DNA from: Acidihalobacter ferrooxydans
GTDB taxonomy: Bacteria > Pseudomonadota > Gammaproteobacteria > DSM-5130 > Acidihalobacteraceae
DNA length: 64,000 nucleotides
Direction of reading: 5' to 3'
Assembly (NCBI RefSeq): GCF_001975725.1
Contig: NZ_CP019434.1
Span: 930,001 to 994,000, forward strand
Made by a program: the position numbers and the translations under genes. Positions 12,466 through 23,539 of this stretch are shown one piece after another (position 1 is the stretch's first letter; each line of letters starts with the position of its first letter). The notes beneath the pieces were generated by a model. It had not been told where the DNA came from. It worked only from the letters and a program-made list of their open reading frames with translations, and did not search any database.

Positions 12466-12879
12466 TCACTGCGCTTGCGCATGCAGCGCTGCGATCAATG
12501 GACATGCCACTTTTTTCTCGCCCTGGCGGCACTGTTCGAGCAGATTTTCGAGTGTGGCCTCGATGCGGTGCAGATCCCGCAGCCGTTGGCGCACGTCATC
12601 CAGATGATGGGCCGCCAATGCGGCCGCCGCATCACATTGCATGCCCTCATCGAGTTGCAGCAAATGGTGGATCTCATCGAGGCTGAAGCCCATTCGCTGC
12701 GCCGATTTTATGAACTTTACCCGCGCAACATCCTGGGCTGAATAATGCCGGATACCGCCCGGCGGACGGGGCGGTTCAAACAACAGGCCCCGGCGCTGGT
12801 AGAAGCGGATGGTTTCGACGTTGACGCCGACGGTCGCGGCCAGGCGGCCGATGGTCAATGCGATTTTTCGATCTTTCAT
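12466..12879 (-). CDS. merR: Mercury-responsive transcriptional regulator MerR
   Basis: Regulator of 137 aa with an N-terminal winged helix (VETIRFYQRRGLL, GGIRHYS) and a dimerisation helix. The three Hg(II)-binding cysteines fall exactly at Cys82 (GMQCDAA), Cys117 and Cys126 (CRQGEKKVACPLI), the arrangement that separates MerR from other family members. It is transcribed away from merC-merA, and the 95-bp gap holds a textbook mer operator. Expected behaviour: repress and bend the promoter without mercury, and activate it on Hg(II) binding. The start ATG at 12879 is the family-typical start. Confidence 0.95.
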   Translation of the reverse strand: MKDRKIALTIGRLAATVGVNVETIRFYQRRGLLFEPPRPPGGIRHYSAQDVARVKFIKSAQRMGFSLDEIHHLLQLDEGMQCDAAAALAAHHLDDVRQRLRDLHRIEATLENLLEQCRQGEKKVACPLIAALHAQAQ

Positions 12880-12889
12880 CAGGGGGGGG

Positions 12890-12920
12890 TTGACTCCGTA
12901 CTTAAGTACGGCAGTAAGTT
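12890..12920 (+). promoter_or_regulatory. mer promoter with MerR operator and 19-bp spacer
   Basis: -35 box TTGACT (12890-12895) and -10 box TAAGTT (12915-12920) are separated by 19 bp instead of 17. Inside the spacer is the perfect 16-bp palindrome CCGTACTTAAGTACGG (12896-12911). This elongated spacer is the hallmark of MerR-activated promoters, which need protein-induced untwisting to fire. It directs merC-merA rightward and would also overlap the merR promoter leftward. Confidence 0.92.
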
Positions 12921-12974
12921 TAGCTTACCGGAATCCACCAAGCACTTACGAATTGTCACCCAGGAGGTTCTACC

Positions 12975-15087
<2,113 letters not shown>

Positions 15088-16704: not shown

Positions 16705-17874
16705 TCAGGCGGCCGTCCGTGCCGGAGCCAGGCCGGGCAGGCGGCGACGCAGGGGTCGCAGGGCCAGCGCTGCCAGGGCCACGGCGCAGCCCAGCTTCAC
16801 CCAGATCGGCAGCAGCTCGGCGCTGGCCTGGATCTGAGCGCCGATGTCGATGTGCAGAGCCTGCACTAGGGCATTGGTGAGCCATCCGAAACCAATCGCG
16901 CAGGCGCTGATGCCGCCGAGATAAACCACCACGAAGCGCCAGCCGAATACCTTGCGCAAGGCGCCTACCGTGCCCAGATTGGTTGCCGGTCCCGCCAGCA
17001 GGAATACCAGCGCCGCGCCGGGCGAGACCCCTGCCAGTAGCATGGCAGTGGCGATCGGCGTGGATTCGGTCGCGCAGACGTAGAAAGGCACACCGACCAA
17101 CAGCATCAGCAGCAAGGCGGGCCAGCCACTGCCGTATGCGCCGAGCGCGGTGGGGGAGACTACAGTCATGGTCAGTCCCGCCAGCGCCAGGCCGAGCGCC
17201 ATCCACAGACTGAATTCGTCGAGCAAGTCGGTGACCGCGTAGCGAAGCCCCGCGGCGGAGCGCCGCCAAACGCTGGCATCGGCGTCTTGTCCGGGAACGG
17301 CGGATTCGCAGCCGCAGGCCGTTGCCCCGCAAACGTCCGGCGCGTCCGCTACCGCGCTTGCCGGTGCGCCTGTCGAGTACGCGGCCGAATCGCAATCCTT
17401 CCTGTCGGCCTGACGCGTGCCCTTGGCAGGCGAATGCGTCGCCGGCCCGGCCAGACTCCCCAGCAGGCCGGTCACGATGGCACTCATGATCGCGCTGAGC
17501 GGCCGGACGACGGTCATGAACGGCCCCAGCAGAGCGAACGAAGTCGCCACGGAATCAACGCCAGTCTCGGGCGTGGCGATCAGAAACGAAAGGGTGGCGC
17601 CGCGCGAGGCACCGGCACGGTGCAAACCCAGCGCGACCGGAATCACGCTGCACGAGCACAACGGCAGCGGCGCGCCGATCAGCGCGGCCTTGGTCACCGG
17701 CCATGCGCCTTGGCCGCCCAGCCAGCGCGCCATCCGATCCTGTGAAATCCAGGCCTTGATCAGGCCGGCGCAGATTAGGCCCAGTATCACCCAGGGCGCG
17801 GCCTCCAGGAACAGGCCCCAGGTGTTGGCCAGCCAATGCGCCAGGGTCGGCCAGATGGCGTCGACAAGGTTCAT
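16705..17874 (-). CDS. Metal permease (ArsP / SO_0444 family)
   Basis: Inner-membrane permease of 389 aa in two halves of about four helices each, joined by a hydrophilic, Cys-containing loop (about residues 150-205). The family cysteine motif PLPLCSCSVIPVALGL is present near residue 70, together with the repeat FYVCATESTPIATAML in the second half. Relatives export organoarsenicals or copper/zinc and are usually run by ArsR-type sensors. Its ATG overlaps the stop of the upstream CadC-like regulator, which strongly links it to that sensor. The substrate is uncertain: Cd/Pb/Zn/Cu or trivalent organoarsenicals. Confidence 0.8.
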   Translation of the reverse strand: MNLVDAIWPTLAHWLANTWGLFLEAAPWVILGLICAGLIKAWISQDRMARWLGGQGAWPVTKAALIGAPLPLCSCSVIPVALGLHRAGASRGATLSFLIATPETGVDSVATSFALLGPFMTVVRPLSAIMSAIVTGLLGSLAGPATHSPAKGTRQADRKDCDSAAYSTGAPASAVADAPDVCGATACGCESAVPGQDADASVWRRSAAGLRYAVTDLLDEFSLWMALGLALAGLTMTVVSPTALGAYGSGWPALLLMLLVGVPFYVCATESTPIATAMLLAGVSPGAALVFLLAGPATNLGTVGALRKVFGWRFVVVYLGGISACAIGFGWLTNALVQALHIDIGAQIQASAELLPIWVKLGCAVALAALALRPLRRRLPGLAPARTAA

Positions 17875-18254
17875 GCGCCCAATACCCGTAATGCCACGTC
17901 GAGATTAGGCAGGGGCGGCGCCTCGTGCCAGCGGTAATACACCATCTTGCCCACGCTGCGCATGCGCAACCAGCCCTGCGCGCGCAGGATACGCAATTGC
18001 TGCGAGGTCGCCGCCACGCTCAGACCGAGCAGATGGGCCAGGTCGCAGACGCACAACTCCGCCTCGCGCAGGGCGCGCAGAATCAGCAGGCGCTTCGGAT
18101 TACCAAGCATCTTGAACAGTTCGGCGCCGGCCGCCAGGCGTTCCGCGTCGTCTGCCAGCGCCTCCTGAACCCGCGCCACGGTGCACGGGTGGAAGCATTC
18201 GATGGCGCAGACGTCCGCAGTGACTTCGGCAGGCTTGATCAATTTCGATTTCAT
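17871..18254 (-). CDS. ArsR/SmtB-family metal sensor, CadC-like
   Basis: Repressor of 127 aa. It combines an N-terminal Cys segment (DVCAIECFHPCTVARVQ) with the ELCVCDL motif in the helix before the recognition helix, the same two-part ligand set used by CadC to bind Cd/Pb/Zn. The HTH is LSVAATSQQLRILRAQGWL. ATG 18254 is chosen because the family start aligns there and a 26-bp inverted repeat centres on it; an upstream in-frame start at 18320 would encode the operator. It is translationally coupled to the permease downstream, so it most likely represses an export operon. Confidence 0.85.
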   Translation of the reverse strand: MKSKLIKPAEVTADVCAIECFHPCTVARVQEALADDAERLAAGAELFKMLGNPKRLLILRALREAELCVCDLAHLLGLSVAATSQQLRILRAQGWLRMRSVGKMVYYRWHEAPPLPNLDVALRVLGA

Positions 18255-18266
18255 GTTTTCGAAATT
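18241..18266 (-). promoter_or_regulatory. Inverted-repeat operator over the CadC-like start codon
   Basis: AATTTCG (18241-18247) and CGAAATT (18260-18266) are perfect 7-bp arms 12 bp apart, centred on the start codon at 18252-18254. It is probably the autoregulatory binding site of the CadC-like protein. Confidence 0.55.
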
Positions 18267-18349
18267 AATTGAATGAAATTCCGCTGTCAACCACCATTGA
18301 GCCGTATCCGCCTGTCGCATTCCCCCTTTTCTCGCTTGTTTTTCAAGCC

Positions 18350-18688
18350 TTACTTGGCACGCCGGATCGATTCTTCACCCATTGTGGCTTCATGCGCCTC
18401 CAACCACTTTCGCATCTGATCGAGTATGGCCAGCAAACTGGGATCGTATAAACAGTAATAGATAAATGGGCCGCGCCGTTCCGCGCGCACCAGATGCGCT
18501 TCCCGAAGGAGGCGCAAATGGAATGAAACATTGGTCTGGCTGAGGCTGGTGGCCTCGACCACATCCGAAACCGGCCGGCACTCCAGACCCAGGCTGCACA
18601 GGATCTTCAGGCGGTTGGGCTCGGCCAGCAGCTTGAAGAGTTCACTCAGGGGCTTGACAGAACCGCATTCATATGCGTTACTACTCAT
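18350..18688 (-). CDS. ArsR-family transcriptional regulator
   Basis: Small repressor of 112 aa with a winged helix (LSQTNVSFHLRLLREAHLV) and an ICYL-type wing ending IYYCLYDPSLL. Cysteines at about residues 8, 31, 37 and 79 could form a thiolate metal site, but the arrangement is neither CadC- nor classical ArsR-like. The start ATG (18686-18688) is covered by the 20-bp motif ATATGAGC-N5-CGCAYAT, which recurs upstream of the methyltransferase at 19778. This argues for autorepression and a local regulon of Met-rich protein, GST and methyltransferase genes. The inducer is unknown. Confidence 0.8.
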   Translation of the reverse strand: MSSNAYECGSVKPLSELFKLLAEPNRLKILCSLGLECRPVSDVVEATSLSQTNVSFHLRLLREAHLVRAERRGPFIYYCLYDPSLLAILDQMRKWLEAHEATMGEESIRRAK

Positions 18689-18706
18689 GTGCGGATGCGC
18701 TCATAT
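18687..18706 (-). promoter_or_regulatory. Candidate ArsR operator, copy 1
   Basis: On the minus strand it reads ATATGAGC, 5 bases, CGCACAT. It overlaps the first base pair of the arsR start codon and lies about 100 bp before the Met-rich gene at 18805, so it could control both directions. The same motif with the same spacing is found at 19717-19736. Confidence 0.6.
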
Positions 18707-18804
18707 GTGTTGATGCTCAATTAAATCCATGGTCGTCAATCCGGCGCAGCTTGTCAAAGACACGCCGGGAAACGGCCCGCCCAACCGATACAGGAGAACG
18801 CGAC

Positions 18805-18984
18805 ATGATGAAGATGTGCAAAGAGATGATGGCCAACATGGCCCCTGCCAACAGGGAAAAGTGCATGGACATGATGCAGCAGTGCAAGGCCATGATGAAT
18901 GAGGCTAAATCGGAGGCAGCCAGCCGGCCTGAAAGCGGCCGGGCTCTGGAGTCACGGCAGGAAGGCGCCGAAGGCGTGTCCTGA
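18805..18984 (+). CDS. Small methionine- and cysteine-rich protein
   Basis: Protein of 59 aa starting MMKMCKEMMANM with an AGGAG 8 bp upstream. Ten of the first 35 residues are Met, with two Cys (positions 4 and 20) plus a further one in MMQQCKAMM. No signal peptide, so it should be cytoplasmic. Met/Cys-rich small proteins often bind soft metals such as Cu(I), Ag or Hg. It faces away from arsR and shares its promoter region and candidate operator. I recognise no named family; a second Met-rich protein is at 20398. The longer ORF beginning at 18673 overlaps the operator and is unlikely. Confidence 0.65.
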   Translation: MMKMCKEMMANMAPANREKCMDMMQQCKAMMNEAKSEAASRPESGRALESRQEGAEGVS

Positions 18985-18994
18985 TGCCTGCCAC

Positions 18995-19654
18995 CTACTT
19001 GTCCATTCTGCCCTCGACATAGGGCTTGTAGGCCTCGATATAGAACGCGGGTGGCTGCCGGTTGACCTGCACCGAGGGGCGCGTCTGCATGGCTTCGAGC
19101 CAGCGGTGAACCCTGGACAGGGATTTCGGTAGTTCGAATCCGCGGTATTCGGTCAATGCCGGCATATGCTCGAAGAAGGGATAGTAGGTCAGATCCACGA
19201 GGCTGAACCGGTCACCCAGCCAATAGGGTCCCGTGGTTTCGGAAAGCGCCTTCTCGATGGTTGTCAGGCTGTCCAACAGCGCAGTACGGATGGCTTCGTG
19301 TTGGCTCTCGTCCAGTTCGAACACCAGGCCGCAGCAGTTGGGCTGAAAGGTGCTGTTGCAGTACTCGATCCAGATACGGGCATGAGCCCGGACGACCGGA
19401 TTTCGGGGCAGCAGGGGCGGGTCGGGAAAGACATCTTCCAGGAATTCATTGATGACCGTGCTTTCCCAGACCACGTCGTCACCGTATTTCAGCAGCGGCA
19501 CCTTGCCGGTGGGCGAGATGTCGGCGTACCAGTCCGGGATGTTCTGCAGGTCGATGATCTGCGCCTCGTGGGGGATGGCCTTCTCTGCCAGCGCCAACCG
19601 TACCCGGTAAGCGAAGGGACAAACATCGTTGTAGTAGAAATGCAAGGTCGTCAC
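18995..19654 (-). CDS. Glutathione S-transferase family protein
   Basis: Protein of 219 aa. The N-terminal thioredoxin-like domain has NDVCPFAYRVRLAL (cysteine catalytic residue as in omega/lambda classes), the cis-Pro segment PTGKVPLLKYGD and the glutathione-binding ESTVINEFLED. The C-terminal helical domain holds YWLGDRFSLVDLTYYPFF, the usual GST motif II. A Cys active site suggests thiol transfer or reductive deglutathionylation rather than conjugation. It is divergent from the methyltransferase at 19778; the gap carries copy 2 of the ArsR operator, so both may be derepressed together. Confidence 0.87.
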   Translation of the reverse strand: MTTLHFYYNDVCPFAYRVRLALAEKAIPHEAQIIDLQNIPDWYADISPTGKVPLLKYGDDVVWESTVINEFLEDVFPDPPLLPRNPVVRAHARIWIEYCNSTFQPNCCGLVFELDESQHEAIRTALLDSLTTIEKALSETTGPYWLGDRFSLVDLTYYPFFEHMPALTEYRGFELPKSLSRVHRWLEAMQTRPSVQVNRQPPAFYIEAYKPYVEGRMDK

Positions 19655-19716
19655 AGGTTCACCTCCTGGCAGAGTATTTATCGAGAGCCATCACGGCCAT
19701 GCATGTGCTAACCCAC

Positions 19717-19736
19717 ATATGAGCAATTTCGCATAT
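19717..19736 (+). promoter_or_regulatory. Candidate ArsR operator, copy 2
   Basis: ATATGAGC, 5 bases, CGCATAT, an ATATG/CATAT inverted repeat with 10 bp between arms. It lies between the divergent GST and methyltransferase genes, 42 bp before the methyltransferase ATG. It is identical in spacing and nearly in sequence to the site over the arsR start (18687-18706). Confidence 0.6.
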
Positions 19737-19777: not shown

Positions 19778-20401
19778 ATGAATGACAATACACTTTTCCC
19801 CGCCACACTCATGCCGGACAAGGATTGGTGGCAGGCCCTTTGGCCGAATCCGGCCGCGGTTCTGAGCACGATCGGAATCGAACCCGGCATGCAGGTCGTG
19901 GACTTGTGCTGTGGAGACGGCCATTTCACCCGGCCCATGTGCGAGCTCGCGCAATCCGGACAAATCTGGGCCGTGGATCTGGATGCCGATCTGCTCGCGC
20001 AGGCAGAGGCGGCGTGCGAGGGTTATCCGAACTTTCATGCCATTTTGGGTGATGCCCGCAAACTGCCCGAACAGATCGAAGAGCCAGTCGATTTCGTGTT
20101 CATCGCCAATACGTTCCATGGCGTACCCGACAAAACCGGGTTGGCGCAGGCGGTCCACCGCGCCCTGAAACCCGATGGCCGGTTTGCCATCGTCAACTGG
20201 TATCGTCGCCCGCGCGAGGAGACCACCGTGCTGGGACAACCGCGTGGGCCCGATACCGGGCTGAGGATGGAACCAGAGGATGTGCAAAAGGTGGTGGAGC
20301 CTGCCGGATTCACATTGGAAAGAGTTGTCGACGTCGGGCCTTATCATTACGGCGCGATCTTTCGCAAGATCAATGCGCCACAACCGGAGGAAGAACGATG
20401 A
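19778..20401 (+). CDS. Class I SAM-dependent methyltransferase
   Basis: Cytoplasmic enzyme of 207 aa with the SAM-binding motif I VVDLCCGDGHFTRPM, the acidic residue of motif II in AVDLDADLL, motif III around FVFIANTFHGV, and the post-motif LKPDGRFAIVNW. This is a UbiE/ArsM-like Rossmann methyltransferase without the extra Cys set of a true ArsM. ATG 19778 has CGGAG upstream; the longer ORF start at 19754 overlaps the promoter. The stop overlaps the next Met-rich gene (ATGA). Context suggests methylation of a toxic metalloid, thiol or quinone, but the substrate is unknown. Confidence 0.82.
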   Translation: MNDNTLFPATLMPDKDWWQALWPNPAAVLSTIGIEPGMQVVDLCCGDGHFTRPMCELAQSGQIWAVDLDADLLAQAEAACEGYPNFHAILGDARKLPEQIEEPVDFVFIANTFHGVPDKTGLAQAVHRALKPDGRFAIVNWYRRPREETTVLGQPRGPDTGLRMEPEDVQKVVEPAGFTLERVVDVGPYHYGAIFRKINAPQPEEER

Positions 20402-20661
20402 AGGACACCATGCAGAAAGTGATGGAAAAGATGATGTCGGGCATGATGAAGCCCGAGGACATGCCGCGCATGATGGAATCCATGATGGACAGCGTGTTCA
20501 AGGAGATGCGGCCCGAAGACCGGATGGAGTTCATGCGCAACATGATGCCTCGCTGCATGAATATGATGTTTTCCGAACTCGAGCCAGCCGATCGCAAGGC
20601 GCTCGCACAATCCATGCTGGAGCGCATGATGCAAGTGCTCAAACACGAGCTTGAACGATGA
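20398..20661 (+). CDS. Methionine-rich cytoplasmic protein
   Basis: Protein of 87 aa with about a quarter Met, in a regular helical pattern such as MSGMMKPEDMPRMMESMMDS and later FMRNMMPRCMNMM with the only Cys. No signal peptide or membrane helix; likely a bundle of amphipathic helices with a Met face, as in soft-metal chaperones. It is translationally coupled to the methyltransferase (ATGA overlap), so the two are made in equal amounts. It resembles the 59-aa protein at 18805 in composition, not in alignable sequence. Function unknown. Confidence 0.75.
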   Translation: MKDTMQKVMEKMMSGMMKPEDMPRMMESMMDSVFKEMRPEDRMEFMRNMMPRCMNMMFSELEPADRKALAQSMLERMMQVLKHELER

Positions 20662-20703: not shown

Positions 20704-22014
20704 TCAATTGGATGGGTTGATCCGCGGATGGGTTTCCTCGCTTCCGAAAGCTACCCAGGCACCGGACAGCAGCAATAGCGCCAGGGTGACCCAGAACGCG
20801 GGCGTGACATGGTCGGTGAGCTGGGCGACCCCGCCCAGAACCAGTCCACCGATGGCATAGCCCGTGTCACGCCAGTAGCGATAGGCACCCAAGGACGCAC
20901 CGCGCCATCTGGGGTCTGAGATGTCGTTGACCGCCGCGATGATGTTGGGATAGAGCATGGCCATACCGATACCCATGACCACGGCGCTGGTGAGCCACAG
21001 AGCAAGCCCGTCGAGCAGTAACACACCCAGAACACCCAGCGCTACCAGCCACAGGCCCCAGGCGATCAGCCACTTGCGCCCGATGCGGTCGGACAGCGGC
21101 CCGCTCCACAATTGCGAAGCGCCCCATACCGCCGCATAGACTCCGGTCACCCAACCGATGTCCACCAGGCCCAGGCCACGCTGATGCAGGTAGAGCGGAA
21201 ATAAAATCCATACCAGCGTATCGGCCACCTTGTTGATCACGCCGGCCTGGCTGAGCGCGCGCAGGGAGGGGTGACGGAATGACACCAGCAGGAAGATCTC
21301 CCAGGCACCGGGTTCTTCGGTGCGGGTTTGCGGAATTCGCGCCTTCGGGCCGTCATGGCGCCCTTCCCGGTGAGCGCGGCTCTCGGCATGGGCGAATCCA
21401 TGCGTCTCGCGCACAAACCAGAGGGTAGTCAGGGCGGCGAGCAGAATCACCCCCAGTGAAAACCCGAATAGGGCGATTCGAGGACCGTAAGTGGCCGCCA
21501 GGATGCCTGTCGCCAGCCCGGCTATGCCCATGGCGGCATAGCCTCCGAACTCGTTGATTCCCACCGCGAGACCGCGTTGTTCGGTACGTGCCAGGTCCAC
21601 CATGCTGATCACGGTGACCGACCAGGCCAGTCCCTGACTGATGCCGAGAAAGACGTTGGCGATGACGACCCAACCCCAGCTCTGTGCGTACAGAAACAGA
21701 AAAGGGATCGGTAAGGCCGCCAGCCAACCGAGCAGCAGCACCCGTTTGCGTCCGATGCGATCGGCCATAGTGCCAGCGGCGAAATTCACGAGCCCCTTGA
21801 CGAAACCGAAGGCGATGACGAAGGAAGCCAGCCACAGAAAGGCCCCTTTGGACACGCCGAAATCAGAGGCCAGGGTCGGCAGTACGGTACGCTCGGTACC
21901 CAGCGTCAGACCGACGAACACCACCTGCAGGGTCTGCATGAGAAATTGCGGGGCATTGAGCCGAATGCCGCGGCGGTGGACTTCGTCCTGACTCGAGGTG
22001 GAATCGAAATTCAT
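20704..22014 (-). CDS. MFS transporter
   Basis: Inner-membrane carrier of 436 aa with twelve predicted helices in two halves. The loop 2-3 signature is GTMADRIGRKRVLLLG and its repeat in the second half is GPLSDRIGRKWLIAWG, both typical of proton-coupled MFS drug or metabolite exporters. A hydrophilic loop of about 40 residues (AHREGRHDGPKARIPQTRTE) separates the halves. It follows the metallo-beta-lactamase gene by 9 bp on the same strand, so the two are likely co-transcribed. The substrate is unknown; context suggests efflux of a toxic or sulfur-containing compound. Confidence 0.85.
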   Translation of the reverse strand: MNFDSTSSQDEVHRRGIRLNAPQFLMQTLQVVFVGLTLGTERTVLPTLASDFGVSKGAFLWLASFVIAFGFVKGLVNFAAGTMADRIGRKRVLLLGWLAALPIPFLFLYAQSWGWVVIANVFLGISQGLAWSVTVISMVDLARTEQRGLAVGINEFGGYAAMGIAGLATGILAATYGPRIALFGFSLGVILLAALTTLWFVRETHGFAHAESRAHREGRHDGPKARIPQTRTEEPGAWEIFLLVSFRHPSLRALSQAGVINKVADTLVWILFPLYLHQRGLGLVDIGWVTGVYAAVWGASQLWSGPLSDRIGRKWLIAWGLWLVALGVLGVLLLDGLALWLTSAVVMGIGMAMLYPNIIAAVNDISDPRWRGASLGAYRYWRDTGYAIGGLVLGGVAQLTDHVTPAFWVTLALLLLSGAWVAFGSEETHPRINPSN

Positions 22015-22023
22015 CGTAAAGCC

Positions 22024-22779
22024 TCAAGCTGTTACGGAGGGGGCCGGTTTGAGTCCCAGATTGACCTCGACCATGCGGTCCATTTCGGCGGGACGCGGCG
22101 GAATTTCCTGGGTCAAAGCTTCGATAAAGGCATCTCGGGGCAAGCCCAACAATGGGTTCCAGCGTTTCTCAAAACCTAGCGTCGAGCCGGGTTTTCCCGA
22201 AATGCCGGCGCCGCACACGCTGCCTGCCACATGTCCTGCATAGATTTCCGTTTCATCGGGCAGGCCCAGCAAATTTCCATGCAGGCTGTCCCAGAGTTGG
22301 CCGGCCATTTCGACCTCTCTGCCCGCAAGATCCGGGCGACCCACTGCGCCCACGAAAAGCGTGTCTCCGGTCAGCACGAACCAGGGTTGATCGCCGCGGC
22401 GCTTGTCGGTGACCAGAAGGCATGTCGAATCCGGCGTATGACCTGGGGTATGCAGCACGTCAATGGCGACGTTGCCTACCTCGATGCGCTGTTTATCCGC
22501 CAACGGTTCGAAATCGAATTGAACGTTGCCTTTGTTCGACTCATGGAGGCAGTAAACGCCGCCGCAGCGTTCGGCTAGCGAGCGGCCGCCGGAGTAATGA
22601 TCGGCATGAATATGCGTATCGATAACATGCGTGATACGAACATCCTGCTTGCGGGCTTCCTCAATGAACCAGTCTTCGTCTCCCAGCACGGGGTCGACGG
22701 CCACGGCTACGTGGCAGGAACCGCAGCCGAACAGGTAGGACAGGGTGGCGTCCCTGGTGGGTAGTTGTCTGAAAAACAT
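22024..22779 (-). CDS. Persulfide dioxygenase-like metallo-beta-lactamase fold enzyme (ETHE1/Blh type)
   Basis: Soluble protein of 251 aa with the metal-binding motif THIHADHYSGG, then HTPGHTPDS, the TGDTLFVGAVGRPDL segment and AGHVAG. These fit the ETHE1/Blh group, which oxidises glutathione persulfide to sulfite using mononuclear iron; glyoxalase II relatives lack the GRPDL segment. The ArsR-rhodanese regulator upstream on the same strand is the usual partner of such enzymes (BigR/SqrR-like sulfide detoxification). The start ATG 22779 has GAGGAGA upstream. Confidence 0.83.
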   Translation of the reverse strand: MFFRQLPTRDATLSYLFGCGSCHVAVAVDPVLGDEDWFIEEARKQDVRITHVIDTHIHADHYSGGRSLAERCGGVYCLHESNKGNVQFDFEPLADKQRIEVGNVAIDVLHTPGHTPDSTCLLVTDKRRGDQPWFVLTGDTLFVGAVGRPDLAGREVEMAGQLWDSLHGNLLGLPDETEIYAGHVAGSVCGAGISGKPGSTLGFEKRWNPLLGLPRDAFIEALTQEIPPRPAEMDRMVEVNLGLKPAPSVTA

Positions 22780-22873
22780 GGTCTATTCTCCTCAATGAAA
22801 AAGTTTTACGGTCAGCCTGCCTTGATGGCCAGGGATCATATTTTTGTTGCCTGCATGCGTCATTGAACTCGGT

Positions 22874-23539
22874 TCACAGCACTTCCTCGACCGGCAGACC
22901 TTGCGCTCGCCACTCCGCCACCCCGTCTTCGATGCGCGTAGTGCGGTAACCTTCCCGGTTCAACAAGGTCACGGCCTCCCTGGCCATCACGCAGAACGGC
23001 CCGCGGCAATACGCCACGATGGGCTTGTCGTGCGGCAGCTCCGCCAGGCGTTTGCGTACTTCGGCAAGTGGCATGGAGAGCGCATACGGCAGGTGACCGG
23101 CAGCGAATTCCGTCTCGGGACGCACGTCCAGTACGACAACCTCGCCCCGTCTGGCTAGTTCAAGCATCTGCGTACGGTTGATCGGAGTCAGTTCTGCCGT
23201 CTGTTCCGACATCCTGGCCAGTGCATCTTTCAGTTCCAGCAAATGCGCCTCGGCCAGTGATCGGATACTCACCCAGAAATCCGCCACACTGCGATCAGCG
23301 AGGCGATAAAACACGCGCTTACCTTCGCGCCGTGTCTCGACCAAACGGGCCTGGCGTAGTTCCTTGAGGTGCGCGCTGGCCAGCTTGATAGAAATCTCCG
23401 CCTCGGCTGCCAGTTGATCGACGGATTTCTCCGCCTGGGCAAGCAGCTCGATCAGTTCCAGACGCTTGGGGCTGGCAACCGCCTTGCCAATGCGGGCCAC
23501 CTGCGCATAAAGCAGATCTTTAATTTCACGCTCAGTCAT
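22874..23539 (-). CDS. ArsR-rhodanese fusion regulator
   Basis: Protein of 221 aa. Residues about 1-95 are an ArsR winged helix (ISIKLASAHLKELRQARLV, then REGKRVFYRLADRSV); residues about 115-220 are a rhodanese domain with the active cysteine in VAYCRGPFCVM. Such fusions are thought to sense reactive sulfur and control persulfide-oxidising genes. A perfect 9-bp inverted repeat lies just upstream. It is transcribed toward the persulfide-dioxygenase-like and MFS genes, which are its probable targets. Confidence 0.87.
   Translation of the reverse strand: MTEREIKDLLYAQVARIGKAVASPKRLELIELLAQAEKSVDQLAAEAEISIKLASAHLKELRQARLVETRREGKRVFYRLADRSVADFWVSIRSLAEAHLLELKDALARMSEQTAELTPINRTQMLELARRGEVVVLDVRPETEFAAGHLPYALSMPLAEVRKRLAELPHDKPIVAYCRGPFCVMAREAVTLLNREGYRTTRIEDGVAEWRAQGLPVEEVL

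Follow-up and report, generated by a model that had tools for sequence, protein, structure and literature searches.

This locus raises the question of whether a short motif that occurs twice around a small ArsR-type gene marks a genuine regulon and, if so, which protein would read the motif and in response to what. The window, by which we mean the whole stretch of 64,000 nucleotides analyzed here, is part of the complete 3.45-Mb genome of Acidihalobacter ferrooxydans (C1:930001-994000); the closest named relative is an Acidihalobacter MAG, whose methyltransferase (MT) is 95% identical. The original prediction read the motif as a shared 20-bp ArsR operator of a tiny regulon, comprising a Met/Cys-rich protein, a GST, a SAM-dependent methyltransferase and a second Met-rich protein. 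The genes and predicted operators concerned are the following:

18350-18688, minus strand: ArsR2, a 112-residue putative repressor of the ArsR/SmtB family with invariant Cys37 and Cys79 (from HMMs, a 38-sequence alignment and an AlphaFold model).
18671-18722, no strand: array A, a predicted operator of three sites at a 16-bp pitch, which spans the start codon of ArsR2 and precedes Met1; conserved in relatives.
18805-18984, plus strand: Met1, a 59-residue Met/Cys-rich protein, divergent from ArsR2 (from its translation; homologues stand beside ArsR2 in loci L011, L018, L020, L022 and L113).
18995-19654, minus strand: GST of the Cys type (DVCPFAYR), omega/DHAR/lambda/SspA-like (Cys12 invariant in 9/9).
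19701-19736, no strand: array B, a predicted operator between GST and MT, with a degenerate site (19701-19720) and a perfect one (19717-19736); conserved in relatives.
19778-20401, plus strand: MT, a class I SAM-dependent methyltransferase of an unnamed family (DLCCGDG, NxFHG, PRGP and PYHYxAxF; from a 76-member alignment).
20398-20661, plus strand: Met2, an 87-residue Met-rich four-helix protein with one invariant Cys (from an alignment and a model with pLDDT 76).

Next to these genes is a metal-resistance neighbourhood, which consists of a mer operon at 12466-15087 (MerR on the minus strand, MerC and MerA on the plus strand), a few kb upstream, an SO_0444-type Cu/Zn permease at 16705-17874 and ArsR1, with an ELCVCDL motif, at 17871-18320. 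Downstream of MT and Met2, the stretch 20704-23539 holds MFS transporter, persulfide-dioxygenase-like MBL and ArsR-rhodanese genes.

Both exact matches of the motif, ATATGAGC-N5-CGCAYAT, were found where they had been predicted, at 18687-18706 over the arsR start and at 19717-19736 in the gap between the GST and methyltransferase genes. As the motif is near-palindromic (ATATGNG-N6-CNCATAT), the copy at 19717-19736 matches on the minus strand too. The symmetrical form, ATATGNG-N6-CNCAYAT, occurs at only two places in the 3.45-Mb genome, namely arrays A and B, and its reversed control had no match anywhere in the whole genome. Within the window, six matches with up to three mismatches were counted, with 2.4 expected; this count, taken alone, is close to chance and is weak evidence. 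In plain form, the arrays are CATATG-like words, one per 16 bp, with the CATAT of one site overlapping the ATATG of its neighbour. The sites of array A lie at 18671-18690, 18687-18706 and 18703-18722, with 0-3 mismatches each, and since the ArsR2 start codon is at 18686-18688, the array covers this codon and the first codons that follow. The sites of array B lie between the GST start at 19654 (minus strand) and the MT start at 19778 (plus strand), and the end of MT overlaps the start of Met2 by 4 bp. When this region of the window was scanned for the sigma-70 consensus, no promoter was found; both the -35 and the -10 boxes are poor. In array B, the second site is degenerate. In relatives, as read from the alignment, the array contains -10-like sequences at a distance of 17-18 bp from TTGAC -35 boxes, as expected for a repressor site.

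Our scan for relatives of MT yielded 80 loci, in many of which ArsR2, GST, Met1 or Met2 homologues are found nearby, along with arrays of equal pitch; the predicted gene set recurs beyond this genome. To guard against circularity, a protein search using ArsR2 only and a DNA search using the double site only were run separately on the same 369 class genomes. The former found an ArsR2 orthologue in 15/369 genomes and the latter a double site in 12/369, with 11 of these 12 being ArsR2-positive. The double site is thus present in 11/15 ArsR2-positive genomes vs 1/354 of the others (Fisher p ~4e-17). When these 15 independent ArsR2 orthologues were considered together with the 80 MT relatives, arrays were seen to recur at the start of ArsR2 and before MT, GST and Met-rich genes. 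At a threshold of no more than 4 mismatches in 24 positions, a double site is found at the start of 28/37 ArsR2 orthologues, and a single site with one mismatch or none is found at 25/37, where shuffled sequences gave an expectation of 0.11. Good sites less than 60 bp apart are spaced by 16 bp (41 pairs) or by 32 bp (5 pairs), and by no other distance. The original prediction would have been contradicted if orthologous genes lacked the motif; instead, a site with no more than one mismatch precedes 5/5 Met1, 6/7 GST and 20/29 MT genes in ArsR2-bearing loci, as compared to 2/49 MT genes where the locus has no ArsR2. No array accompanies the second MT copy of the genome (C1:3367895, 70% identical).

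The exceptions should be considered as well. In L014, L029 and L114, where no array is found at the ArsR2 start, the gene lies inside a GST or MT operon, and in L115 the ArsR2 gene, again with no array at its start, is divergent from MT and downstream of an array. Several arrays, those of a Thiobacillus-like group, carry two mismatches per site. Where the neighbouring target differs, the array stays with ArsR2: it stands between ArsR2 and a persulfide-dioxygenase-like (MBL) gene with an MFS transporter in L118 and L124, and faces a TVP38/DedA-like protein in L122 and L123. Taken together, the arrays, their conservation and their link to ArsR2 thus point to a real, phylogenetically conserved regulon, in which the same predicted repressor and switches recur in dozens of bacterial genomes, mostly near the same gene set, and which we read as a stress regulon. 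That the two sites arose by chance, or serve a different regulator (ArsR1, for instance), is very improbable. The three-mismatch count in the window alone is near chance and the operator style is used by several ArsR types, but the genome-wide uniqueness of the symmetrical form and the Fisher test argue against such an explanation, as do the arrays of L113-L124, which accompany ArsR2 orthologues in the absence of any detected ArsR1 nearby.

In 18 loci, the ATG falls within the array, which also codes for the first residues of the protein (ATGAGTnnnAACGCATAT, giving M-S-x-N-A-Y); 20 such loci had been listed, from which L040 and L060, being frame artefacts, were left out. The protein of the Thiobacillus-like group, whose array stands 25-42 bp upstream of the start, begins with MKFPEHDQ. 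As the protein starts in this other way where the array lies upstream, the comparison suggests that the N-terminal sequence of ArsR2 has been shaped by the operator.

The operator itself is less specific than had been claimed. The shared 20-bp element does exist, as part of near-palindromic arrays at a 16-bp pitch in two places of the genome, but it does not belong to this regulon only. Classical, arsenite-responsive arsR-arsC operons of other Gammaproteobacteria (L139, L140, L146) carry the same ATATGNG-N6-CNCATAT tandem at 16 bp, although ArsR2 lacks the CVC motif and the arsR-arsC loci that were read hold no MT, GST or Met-rich genes. We thus rejected the motif as a unique mark of the ArsR2 regulon; as this operator style is common to arsR-arsC operons, the regulon cannot be defined by the motif alone, and since other ArsR proteins use it, cross-talk is possible. 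A phylum-wide pattern scan gave few true matches outside the class. A conserved double CATATG-type repeat was also seen in six genomes of one genus (L131-L136; 6-8 Mb), next to the gene of a PadR-like regulator and another small, conserved gene; it was judged to be unrelated.

The label of ArsR that the gene was originally given holds at the level of the family. ArsR2 scores 39.5 bits against PF01022 (HTH_5; cut-off 22) and 77.1 bits against NF033788 (cut-off 55), and its AlphaFold model (pLDDT 86) has the winged-helix fold of SmtB and CzrA, with CzrA, SmtB, NmtR and Rv0081 as the best PDB matches and Z values of 13-14 to SmtB, CzrA and Rv0081. The label does not hold in the sense of an arsenic-type protein. 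The arsenite-type CxC (CVC) at the start of alpha3 is absent, with LECRPVSD in ArsR2 vs ACVCDL in L140, and arsenic-type regulation was ruled out on this basis. The alpha3N metal motif is absent as well, and of the alpha5 Asp-His and His of SmtB/CzrA, only the Asp (Asp82) is conserved, the His positions in the CzrA alignment being occupied by other residues. As to the Cys pair of SqrR/BigR, the first Cys (equivalent to that in ILC of YgaV) is present in 26/38 sequences, while the position of the second (the C-terminal VYC) has no Cys. Membership among the SqrR-type persulfide sensors was therefore ruled out on the Cys pattern, with a SqrR-like way of working being possible; the genome encodes a different, SqrR-like protein at C1:80323, which does have the Cys pair of true persulfide sensors.

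What ArsR2 does have is a different pair, as Cys37 and Cys79 are invariant in 38/38 aligned sequences, whereas Cys31 varies (present in 26/38). In the model, Cys37 lies just before strand beta1 (38-39) and Cys79 within strand 75-80 (beta3, in the wing). In winged-helix proteins, these two strands adjoin, so that a Cys37-Cys79 bridge or a soft-ligand site is plausible; the closeness of the two residues is itself a plausible reading of the secondary structure in the model.

Among the predicted targets, GST contains GST_N and GST_C above cut-off and, with the invariant Cys12 of CPFA, is of the Cys type; its best PDB relatives include DHAR, omega and lambda proteins, and SspA-like proteins are also among its closest. 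MT reached the cut-off of no named NCBIfam family, being a member neither of ArsM (PRK11873; 35 bits, cut-off 263) nor of the DVU_1556 family methyltransferases (NF045667; 50 bits, cut-off 155). Its family is well-defined and widespread, haloarchaea included, and is found beside sulfur-transfer and copper genes. Met2, a conserved protein, is helical and contains about 20 methionines as well as the one invariant Cys. Neither Met1 nor Met2 reached the cut-off of any Pfam or NCBIfam family (Met2 scored 18 bits against MgtE_N, cut-off 26) or matched a PHROG, and their N termini show no obvious signal peptide. With a middling model of a helical bundle as the query, Foldseek found nothing for Met2 with E <0.001, and a plasmid search for Met2 gave no match. 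Small SHOCT membrane proteins are found after ArsR2 or before MT in many loci. With these, the MBL-MFS pair and the TVP38/DedA-like protein as targets elsewhere, the regulon reaches beyond what is seen in the window and varies in content; the tiny regulon of the original prediction stands as a conserved unit, but not as the full extent of the system. Taken together, the products have the appearance of a defence against some thiol-attacking agent.

Starting from what can be read in the sequences (the arrays, their conservation, the link to ArsR2, the gene set and the Cys pair), we consider it probable that ArsR2 is an autorepressor acting on two arrays and released by a thiol-reactive or thiophilic signal, which would turn on GST, MT and the Met proteins. 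In this model, where DNA binding, repression, Cys-based sensing, each enzyme substrate and the inducer class are what we infer, a dimer of ArsR2 would bind the arrays of CATATG half-sites, 16 bp apart and with neighbours sharing their ends, at two divergent promoters. Binding to array A, over its own start codon and upstream of Met1, would result in autoregulation, while array B would place the promoter between GST and MT-Met2 under the same control. A signal such as reactive sulfur, a soft metal or an electrophile would then act on Cys37/Cys79 and release the DNA, allowing the Cys-type GST, the SAM-dependent methyltransferase and the two Met-rich cytosolic proteins to be made. Such products would fit detoxification by thiol transfer, methylation and soft-ligand or oxidant buffering. 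It is conceivable, though short of an even chance, that ArsR2 represents a new class of ArsR-family sensor, with a Cys pair across two strands (beta1/beta3 of the wing) that responds to a thiol-reactive signal via tandem operators, and that its regulon is a new detoxification route built from a Cys-type GST, conserved Met-rich proteins of the cytosol and a SAM methyltransferase of a new family.

As for the signal, reactive sulfur, soft metals and oxidants are indistinguishable from sequence. One tentative possibility is that ArsR2 senses persulfide or polysulfide in a SqrR/BigR-like manner with a different Cys pair, and that the regulon clears sulfane sulfur and thiol adducts. Many of the hosts are sulfur oxidisers, MT relatives in haloarchaea have TusA, DsrE, an FAD/NAD(P) oxidoreductase and YeeE/YedE as neighbours, several MT loci are flanked by ArsR-rhodanese genes, and the array that parts ArsR2 from MBL-MFS in L118 and L124 adjoins a protein with ETHE1/CstB relatives in the PDB. 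The MBL-MFS pair of the window itself, however, has no array, the second sensing Cys (C107 of SqrR, the C-terminal Cys of YgaV) is missing, Cys31 is present in only 26/38 sequences, and the proper SqrR-like protein is encoded separately at C1:80323.

To be held just as tentatively is the sensing of a soft metal or metalloid (Hg, Cu(I), Ag, As/Sb or Te/Se) at Cys37/Cys79 by ArsR2, with a regulon that methylates, conjugates and buffers. The Met-rich proteins with their invariant Cys and the Cys-type GST would suit this, MT is often followed by an ArsM-like second methyltransferase (in L120, 243 bits to NF041537) or an AhpD-like protein, the mer operon and the SO_0444-type permease are next door, and Cu-ATPases and MerR proteins are found in other loci. 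Nonetheless, the adjoining metal genes have no array and possess their own regulators, MT falls far under the ArsM cut-off, and ArsR2 has none of the alpha3 CxC, alpha3N or alpha5 metal motifs. A response to oxidants or electrophiles (reactive chlorine or quinones), with the Met-rich proteins as oxidant sinks, is rather unlikely. An ArsR2 orthologue (~64%) is found with a SHOCT gene and an array-like repeat on the chlorate-reduction transposon of Ideonella dechloratans (PMC7349173) and, going by the title of ref. 53 in PMC9751292, Met-rich peptides elsewhere scavenge hypochlorite. Those hypochlorite scavengers are, however, periplasmic, while Met1 and Met2 have no obvious signal peptide, and the recurring neighbour clusters that were inspected contained no recognisable methionine sulfoxide reductase.

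Compared to known systems, ArsR2 shares with the 12-2-12 autorepressors SmtB, CzrA and AzuR the fold, autoregulation (predicted for ArsR2) and an ATATG-N10-CATAT-like inverted repeat at or near the promoter; the arms of the array presumably resemble those of the CzrA operator. ArsR2 differs from them in its lack of alpha5 histidines, in Cys37/Cys79, in its tandem sites at a 16-bp pitch and in targets other than a metallothionein or an efflux pump. The arrays fit the ArsR/SmtB operator, a 12-2-12 inverted repeat at the promoter (PMC8790569), in being inverted repeats with ATATG..CATAT-like arms at the promoter. The nearest functional parallels are the persulfide-responsive ArsR repressors (PMC12423496, PMC10451225). 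With SqrR, BigR, YgaV and SoxR, ArsR2 has in common the ArsR fold, predicted Cys-based sensing, sulfur-oxidiser hosts and sometimes a persulfide-dioxygenase-like neighbour, but it lacks the second sensing Cys and has another invariant Cys pair. The Ideonella orthologue (L093 4925-5569), an uncharacterised ArsR noted as the sole regulator of its transposon (PMC7349173), differs in standing beside chlorate reductase, with no MT in the stretch read. More distant plasmid ArsR matches in Klebsiella were set aside, as they belong to a CDF transporter locus. In line with the claim that no detoxification unit with this gene set had been described, searches of the literature on TsoR/selenocysteine-assisted organometal systems, on ArsR with SHOCT and on ArsR with mer, GST and methyltransferase turned up no paper that describes the unit.

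The operator array and the repressor would thus offer a transferable handle on a widespread, undescribed stress response of sulfur- and metal-exposed bacteria, and two families without function, MT and Met2, can be assigned to the ArsR2 regulon. The Cys37/Cys79 pair predicts a sensor site unlike those compared here, which mutating the two residues can check.

Some loci hold further genes beside MT and Met2. The ArsM-like second methyltransferase directly follows MT in L120 (7171-7908), L017 (1983-2717) and L069 (6611-7375), and its closest NCBIfam models are ArsM-domain selenoproteins. A third Met-rich protein, Met3, with a Met-rich N terminus and then a possible winged-helix-like part, comes after Met2 in L018 (6897-7367), L020 (6903-7355), L038 (701-1240) and L113 (4227-4655). 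In some Alphaproteobacteria (L063, L072 and L073), a nucleoside-phosphorylase-like gene adjoins MT.
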